From Bacteroidaceae bacterium HV4-6-C5C (GTDB taxonomy: Bacteria > Bacteroidota > Bacteroidia > Bacteroidales > Bacteroidaceae), in contig VOIU01000005.1 of the NCBI GenBank assembly GCA_007896885.1, positions 1 through 64,000 on the forward strand: a stretch of DNA of 64,000 nucleotides, in the 5' to 3' direction. The first letter of the stretch is position 1. Each line of letters starts with the position of its first letter. The notes under the pieces were generated by a model that ran no database searches, was not told where the DNA came from, and worked only from the letters and a program-made list of their open reading frames with translations. Positions 8,306 to 9,989 of the stretch are shown here, piece after piece. The position numbers and the translations under genes were made by a program.

Positions 8306-8313
8306 TATTTTTG
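8306..8313 (+). promoter_or_regulatory. Possible -7 box before the rSAM-linked lipoprotein
   Basis: TATTTTTG matches TAnnTTTG, 59 bases before the ATG at 8373. The upstream TTGG around 8283 is only a partial -33 match. Confidence 0.35.
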
Positions 8314-8372: not shown

Positions 8373-8813
8373 ATGGTTATTACGAAAAAAAGTAGAAGCC
8401 GATTATTACAGCTCTGCAACTGCTTATTGTCAGGAGTTCTGGTGTTATTAGGATTTTCTTCTTGTACACGAGAAGGTTCTGAAGAATATGGGATGCCTTA
8501 TGCCAAATATGAAATTAAGGGTAAGGTCACAAACGAACAAAAAGAGACGATACCAAAGGCTCAGGTCATTGTGAAACAATTGGATTCGAGTGGGAAGTCT
8601 TTTTATCGGGCAGATACTTTGAATGTAAATGGTTCTGGTGAGTACCAATATCTTACTGAGGGTTTTACAGAAAGCTACCGTGTGATTGCCGAAGAGCCAT
8701 CGGGGGTGTATAAGGCAGATTCTACAGATGTAAAGATGGAGCCTAAAGGTGGTAGCGGATGGTATGTCGGGAGTGATAGTAAAGAAGTGGATTTTGAATT
8801 GAAGAAGAATTAG
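8373..8813 (+). CDS. Radical SAM-associated putative lipoprotein
   Basis: A 146-residue protein with a lipoprotein-type signal (hydrophobic 17-28, lipobox FSSC, Cys31). After a short EYGMPYAKYEIKGKV stretch (38-52) comes a small carboxypeptidase-regulatory-like beta-sandwich (about 45-145: GKVTNEQKETIPKAQVIV...). The C-terminus has a Gly/aromatic run (GGSGWYVG, 126-133). I recognise this as the lipoprotein half of the Bacteroidales rSAM/lipoprotein system. The gene for the radical SAM enzyme starts 102 bases downstream on the same strand. It is probably the substrate, or a partner, of that enzyme and would end up lipid-anchored in the envelope. The modification and role are not known to me. 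Confidence 0.75.
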   Translation: MVITKKSRSRLLQLCNCLLSGVLVLLGFSSCTREGSEEYGMPYAKYEIKGKVTNEQKETIPKAQVIVKQLDSSGKSFYRADTLNVNGSGEYQYLTEGFTESYRVIAEEPSGVYKADSTDVKMEPKGGSGWYVGSDSKEVDFELKKN

Positions 8814-8915
8814 TTTCTAATACTCTAGGTGTTTTGGTCTCGTGTTTATTCGAGTTGTTTGAAGCATATATATGGTGTTTGATGTATATATAATAATTTC
8901 GTTCAGTGTAGCAAC

Positions 8916-9989
8916 ATGAGTGAGCTCTCAATAAGAAAACGTCTCGCATTGGAAATAGCGAGAAAAATACGGAATAACCGTAAAGAGTTACACCCGATTA
9001 AACAATTGTTTTGGGAGTCTACCTTGCGGTGTAATCTCCACTGTAAGCATTGCGGTAGCGACTGTAGACAAACATCTGATGTGAAAGACATGTCGGTGCC
9101 GGATTTTTTACGAGTGATTGATACAATTACCCCTCATGTTAATCCGCATGAAGTTAATATTATTATTACAGGTGGAGAACCCTTAGTTCGGCAAGATCTT
9201 GAAGAAGTGGGTCTGGCTTTGTATCGACGTGGATATTCTTGGGGGATTGTGTCAAATGGATTGCTGCTGACTGAACAGCGTTTACAAAGTCTTATGGGAG
9301 CGGGGCTGCATGCTATAACCATTAGCCTTGATGGTTTTCAATATGAACATAACTGGCTGCGTGGAGATTCTCGAAGTTATGATTGTGCATTTGGAGCGAT
9401 AAAAATGCTTGTGAATGAACCGGAGTTGGTCTGGGATGTAGTTACCTGTGTTAATCAGCGTAACTATAGGCATTTACAAGAGTTTAAAGATAATCTCTAT
9501 AATAATGGCGTCAGAGATTGGCGCTTGTTTACTATCTTCCCGGTTGGTCGTGCAGCTCTACTTCTTGATTTACAATTAAAGGATGAAGAGTTTATCGGCC
9601 TTATGGAATTTATAAAGCATGTTCGTAAGGAAGGAAAAATACATGTAAATTATGGTTGTGAAGGATTTTTAGGAAAGTATGAAGGAGAGGTTCGTGACTA
9701 CTTTTTCGGTTGTAATGCCGGGATTAGTGTCGCTTCCATACTTGCTGACGGGTCTATTTCTGCTTGTCCTAGCATTCGGAGTCATTTTTATCAAGGTAAT
9801 ATTTATCAAGATGATTTTATGGAAGTGTGGAATAAAGGCTTCCAACTTTATAGAGATCGCAAATGGATGAAAAAGGGGCTTTGCAGTGAATGTGGTTTCT
9901 TTCGCTACTGTGAGGGGAATGGTATGCATTTACGTGACGACAATGGCGATTTGCTTTTCTGTCATTTACACAGATTGCACGAACAGTAA
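8916..9989 (+). CDS. Radical SAM/SPASM maturase of the rSAM/lipoprotein system
   Basis: A 357-residue enzyme. The radical SAM cluster motif is CNLHCKHC (Cys39, 43, 46) with an extra Cys50, and the SAM-binding GGEP is at 86-89. The C-terminal SPASM region carries Cys248, 266, 284, 323, 326, 332 and 349, enough for two auxiliary Fe-S clusters (the CSECGFFRYC run at 323-332 is typical). SPASM enzymes usually modify peptides by forming thioether or C-C cross-links or by epimerisation. Pairing with the lipoprotein at 8373-8813 points to a peptide modification of that protein before export. No protease, transporter or RiPP recognition domain gene is adjacent. It ends 88 bases from the convergent yifB-like gene. 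Confidence 0.82.
   Translation: MSELSIRKRLALEIARKIRNNRKELHPIKQLFWESTLRCNLHCKHCGSDCRQTSDVKDMSVPDFLRVIDTITPHVNPHEVNIIITGGEPLVRQDLEEVGLALYRRGYSWGIVSNGLLLTEQRLQSLMGAGLHAITISLDGFQYEHNWLRGDSRSYDCAFGAIKMLVNEPELVWDVVTCVNQRNYRHLQEFKDNLYNNGVRDWRLFTIFPVGRAALLLDLQLKDEEFIGLMEFIKHVRKEGKIHVNYGCEGFLGKYEGEVRDYFFGCNAGISVASILADGSISACPSIRSHFYQGNIYQDDFMEVWNKGFQLYRDRKWMKKGLCSECGFFRYCEGNGMHLRDDNGDLLFCHLHRLHEQ

Follow-up and report, generated by a model that had tools for sequence, protein, structure and literature searches.

A lipoprotein and radical SAM/SPASM enzyme pair of Bacteroidales with a conserved xYGxP motif and a probable splicease-like chemistry

Lipoprotein and enzyme genes in the window

In the window, the whole 64,000-nt stretch of the Bacteroidaceae bacterium HV4-6-C5C contig analysed here, a lipoprotein gene is followed after an intergenic gap of 102 nt by a gene for a radical SAM/SPASM enzyme (Table 1). 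ORF calls agreed exactly with an earlier note on this DNA in the positions of both frames, the length of the gap and the lipobox at Cys31; the CNLHCKHC sequence and the seven SPASM-region cysteines that it had read in the enzyme and GGSGWYVG in the lipoprotein were likewise all present. The lipoprotein scored 137.6 bits against the curated NCBIfam cut-off of 39.8 for TIGR04134 and the enzyme 589 bits against that of 425 for TIGR04133, of which the source genome held a single copy. The enzyme carries Cys39, Cys43 and Cys46 and seven C-terminal cysteines, with Pfam Radical_SAM and SPASM both over cut-off, and the lipoprotein was predicted from its sequence to have a signal peptide with the lipobox LLGFSSC. 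Neither a PlpY-like partner gene between or beside the pair nor a protease gene adjoining it was found in the window. An element at 8306-8313, TATTTTTG, 67 nt before the lipoprotein start, resembles the Bacteroides -7 promoter box, which is weak evidence.

The AlphaFold2 model of the lipoprotein comprises a signal helix, a low-confidence tether with EYGMP and a beta-sandwich whose Foldseek matches were prealbumin/CnaB-like folds, so that the folded domain previously attributed to the substrate was borne out. The GWYVG stretch is part of the last hairpin of this sandwich and was confidently modelled.

Table 1. Features of the lipoprotein/enzyme pair, in window coordinates
Feature	Coordinates	Strand	Remarks
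Lipoprotein gene (TIGR04134), proposed substrate	8373..8813	+	146 aa; AlphaFold2 mean pLDDT 90.7
Signal peptide, residues 1-30, proposed also as leader/recognition element	8373..8462	+	LG[hydrophobic]xxC enrichment
LGF motif, Leu26-Gly27-Phe28	8448..8456	+	Gly27 invariant in 38 aligned relatives
Lipobox cysteine, Cys31	8463..8465	+	ORF translation, alignment
xYGxP motif, E38-Y39-G40-M41-P42, proposed splice/modification site	8484..8498	+	Alignment, neighbour counts, orphan loss
Beta-sandwich (prealbumin/CnaB-like) domain, residues 43-138	8499..8786	+	AlphaFold2, Foldseek, weak Pfam CarboxypepD_reg
GGSGWYVG, residues 126-133, beta hairpin	8748..8771	+	Judged mostly structural
Radical SAM/SPASM enzyme gene (TIGR04133), proposed splicease-like maturase	8916..9989	+	357 aa
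CNLHCKHCGS, radical SAM cluster motif with Gly-Ser common to the TIGR04103 group	9030..9059	+	
SPASM region, auxiliary-cluster C248, C266, C284, C323, C326, C332, C349	9657..9962	+	

Pairing of the two families across genomes

We applied the NCBIfam cut-offs to an even draw of 393 genomes from the order, where the lipoprotein was found in 58, the enzyme in 87 and both in 53 (Fisher p = 2e-36). Since 53 of the 58 lipoprotein genomes also held the enzyme, the pairing is not due to chance, and the reading of the two genes as a maturation pair was upheld. In two further genomes of the sample, an enzyme scoring below the cut-off adjoins the lipoprotein. Among the fetched loci, nearly every enzyme gene is directly preceded by one to three lipoprotein genes, often overlapping the enzyme start codon, and in two genomes a single open frame holds both, with the enzyme first in L234 (722-2323) and the lipoprotein first in L235 (1049-2569).

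The pair is plasmid-borne in one Treponema and one Parabacteroides. On the Treponema saccharophilum plasmid pTS1 (L154:4797-7089), it lies next to the gene of an Mpi-family invertase, which hints at transfer and perhaps phase variation. Several Bacteroides copies appear to have decayed, with a split enzyme frame in L115 (5992-7061) and truncated lipoprotein frames in L062 (5782-5973) and L116 (5826-6008).

A Tyr-Gly motif near the lipid anchor

The window lipoprotein contains an Xaa-Tyr-Gly sequence of the PlpX substrate type, EYGMP, about 8 residues past its lipid cysteine. An alignment of 38 long lipoproteins showed Tyr39 and Gly40 to be invariant and Pro42 nearly so; the EYGxPYA segment, earlier singled out for such a comparison, thus proved to hold a conserved site. 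Among 109 distinct lipoproteins adjoining TIGR04133 enzymes, YG was present in the mature part of 108 and YGxP in 101, at a median of 10 residues past the lipid cysteine. The position before Tyr is unconstrained, being occupied by E, M, A, L, G, C, S, V or H, and the residue following YG can be G or P. Of 88 TIGR04133 genes sampled evenly, 81 adjoin a lipobox ORF with YG and 76 one with xYGxP, and manual reading of the leftover loci added two more, a CYGTP protein at a contig edge and a secreted QYGS protein. The motif was found in 48 of 56 enzyme-adjacent lipobox ORFs and in 0 of 74 elsewhere in the loci, this control having been drawn from the flanks of the same loci and not from whole-genome lipoprotein sets.

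The motif is also kept by neighbours outside TIGR04134, namely L058 (VYGSP), L061 (three copies), L185, L189 and L195 (three copies). Unrelated substrates, including coiled-coil or disordered proteins, share only the lipobox and xYGxP, some with two or three motif copies, and in short substrates these are the sole features retained. Set against the RiPP scheme of leader, core and proteolytic release of a small product, some short substrates are lipopeptide-like at 45-51 aa, but most substrates keep a folded domain. From these comparisons, the Tyr-Gly motif by the lipid anchor, xYGxP, is strongly supported as the enzyme's putative target.

We also found a subclass in which the lipobox cysteine directly precedes YG (QACYGTx; L204:1315-1776, L210:1346-1750, L219:1390-1776, L215:3-302 and L154:5613-6002). 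Because this cysteine is the residue before Tyr, splicing there would alter the lipid-bearing residue itself.

The signal peptide has a motif of its own. LG[hydrophobic]xxC, in which Leu-Gly-Phe occupies positions -5 to -3 relative to the cysteine, was found in 45 of 51 paired lipoproteins compared with 7 of 167 background lipobox ORFs, from which we infer that the signal peptide probably doubles as the enzyme's recognition leader. Four of the five orphan lipoproteins described below lack it.

Lipoproteins in genomes without the enzyme

A lipoprotein homologue without a TIGR04133 enzyme was found in five genomes, and YG was lost in all five, each time by a different change. EYGTPYAK has turned into ENCTSYAK in L229, the site has become GNGSP in L222, NKTP in L223 and EHGTP in L232, and no motif is left in L230. 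YG was thus kept in 108 of 109 lipoproteins with the enzyme versus 0 of 5 without it (p = 4e-8). The orphans were detected with a family profile that itself covers the motif columns, a bias working against this outcome.

Three loci were excluded from the orphan count. L231 retains EYGTP, and a run of N starts directly behind the gene, at the place expected for the enzyme, which may therefore lie in an assembly gap. L233 is an orphan paralogue without YG whose genome has the enzyme elsewhere. The sole contrary case is L224, a secreted relative that is not a lipoprotein and keeps QYGA, with no enzyme found in its genome. The earlier note had regarded frequent occurrence of the lipoprotein without the radical SAM gene as evidence against the pairing; orphans were rare and had lost YG, which strengthened it. 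Dependence of the putative site on the enzyme is strongly supported by this pattern of loss.

Kinship of the enzyme

The enzyme model (pLDDT 91) had SkfB, SuiB and anSME as its closest solved structures, neighbours that did not decide the chemistry. In a maximum-likelihood tree, a branch with 100/100 support separated TIGR04133 and the TIGR04103/GDL group, taken together, from the other SPASM enzymes, against a small outgroup most of whose rows had been fetched by the CNLHCKHC pattern. E34, G47, S48, W202 and G250 are conserved in both the TIGR04133 and TIGR04103 groups and rare outside them. TIGR04103 corresponds to what we take to be IPR026482, and membership of the window enzyme in it was rejected at 123.3 bits against a cut-off of 725.

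In Nostoc, the gene beside that of a bona fide TIGR04103 enzyme encodes a Nif11 precursor that has the core ALYGLPPELF and ends in GSIALYGLPPELF. Some members of the TIGR04103 group (L145, L147, L150 and L160) have no adjoining YG peptide, so that kinship alone leaves the chemistry unfixed. Considering the missed TIGR04103 cut-off, the lack of PlpY and these YG-less neighbours, we describe the enzyme as one that works like a splicease and is no TIGR04103 member.

In the genus of the window, we also detected different TIGR04103-like enzymes of intermediate similarity (L146:1468-3599, L240:580-2756 and L241:394-2569). Their neighbours are proteins of 214-229 aa that carry six or seven (K/L)YGYP repeats, five to seven of them of the form (K/L)YGYPC, and look like multi-site substrates; the one in L146 had no Pfam or NCBIfam match.

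Proposed reaction and alternatives

PlpX spliceases remove tyramine at Xaa-Tyr-Gly sites and reseal the backbone so that an alpha-keto amide is left (PMC11002830); their natural sites are MYG and LYG, a PlpA2-derived tag is PIRPLYGLPI, and they are active within folded proteins (PMC10533398). Judging from kinship and motif, tyramine excision is the most likely chemistry for the present pair, and we consider it probable, though well short of certain, that the enzyme is splicease-like and makes alpha-keto-beta-amino-acid lipoproteins. The lipoprotein precursor would be recognised in the cytoplasm ahead of export, probably via LGFxxC of the signal peptide and xYGxP just past the lipobox. Radical chemistry at Tyr39-Gly40 would then cut the tyrosine remnant (tyramine) from the backbone and rejoin the ends, and the edited protein would be lipidated at Cys31, leaving an electrophilic keto-amide on the tether with the membrane anchor on one side and the beta-sandwich domain on the other. 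If tyramine is excised, the tryptic peptide EGSEEYGMPYAK should shift from MH+ 1360.573 to 1225.504 (-135.068 Da).

Less probable is a different reaction at the same Tyr-Gly site: cleavage of Tyr between C-alpha and C-beta, an epimerisation or oxidation, or the cross-linking of Tyr to a nearby residue. SkfB, SuiB, anSME and PqqE, the structural and sequence neighbours, are chemically diverse, TIGR04133 is a separate subfamily without a PlpY partner, and the Pro conserved in most sites has no obvious role in splicing. A cross-link, however, would call for a partner, and no conserved one was seen, with the residue before Tyr free and that after Gly open to G or P; moreover, YG alone is near-invariant, as with PlpX, and XYG(xP) is common to bona fide TIGR04103 systems. 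It seems very improbable that the two genes are merely linked in an operon, with the lipoprotein as an accessory and the enzyme working in a different pathway: 5-6 of 88 enzymes have no recognisable adjoining YG lipoprotein, but the motif is common to unrelated neighbours and lost in orphans, and tandem substrate copies and gene fusions tie the genes together.

We give equally little credence to the C-terminal GWYVG run, which the earlier note had proposed as the modification site. W130 and G133 are nearly invariant among long relatives, and the W motif is less frequent in orphans (2/5) than in paired long lipoproteins (80/86). Some paired lipoproteins, however, do not have it, among them every one of the 23 short substrates, nor do unrelated substrates; it also sits in the confidently modelled hairpin and is kept without the enzyme in the orphans L222 and L232, so that it is probably not the target.

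This widespread pair thereby gains a site, a proposed chemistry and a one-peptide mass prediction. If tyramine excision is correct, backbone editing to beta-amino acids would extend beyond small secreted peptides to exported structural lipoproteins of gut bacteria, the signal peptide would act as a maturase leader, and compact PlpY-free spliceases for short tags would be useful in protein labelling. Spliceotides have been described as protease inhibitors (PMC11117315, PMC10373908), and a membrane-anchored ketoamide that follows Glu or Met might likewise serve as an inhibitor, of a covalent and reversible type. We put forward only tentatively, as possible but rather doubtful, the wider proposal that many Bacteroidales edit lipoprotein backbones, producing alpha-keto-beta-amino acids ahead of export and using the Sec signal peptide as the maturase's leader, and that the products are anchored covalent protease inhibitors whose specificity depends on which residue, usually Glu or Met, precedes Tyr.

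Comparison with known systems

Scott et al. 2022 (Chem 8:2659) is said to be a survey of splicease distribution, and part of the present splicease picture may already be known from it. In the literature text that we searched, outside which this main survey lies, no mention of TIGR04133 or TIGR04134 came up, nor any splicease from Bacteroidetes. The Bacteroides SPASM loci described in a graspetide survey (PMC8939145) are different ones, and YGxP was not seen there.

The PlpXY splicease of Pleurocapsa resembles the window system in its radical SAM/SPASM enzyme, XYG target, LYGLP-type motif and CxxxCxxCGS signature, and resembles the relatives studied here in having multiple sites per precursor and, through TIGR04103, a common clade with TIGR04133. 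Unlike PlpXY, the window enzyme falls below the TIGR04103 cut-off and has neither PlpY nor a Nif11/NHLP leader; its substrates are predicted exported lipoproteins in which the signal peptide apparently serves as leader, with no sign of proteolytic core release.

The GDL/DUF1843 (TIGR03913) systems have sister enzymes, adjoining tandem small-protein genes and N-terminal xYG-like motifs, but their small proteins are cytosolic and at times have Tyr without Gly (MYAAS, MYMAT); no product was described for them in the literature searched. DUF1843 proteins with N-terminal xY(G/A/M) were seen adjoining sister-clade enzymes (L142:828-1251, L157:2201-2914 and L158:2094-2794) and are a candidate substrate family.

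Bufferins, MNIO-modified RiPPs, likewise have precursors bearing signal peptides, and Sec or lipoprotein signal peptides form part of their recognition (PMC12452194), but the enzyme class is different and the chemistry is on cysteine. Both window genes are full members of the TIGR04133/TIGR04134 pair itself. NCBI lists them as hypothetical equivalogs, naming the pair without site, chemistry or function, in keeping with the earlier view that the product is undescribed, and the present analysis adds to them a site and a proposed chemistry.
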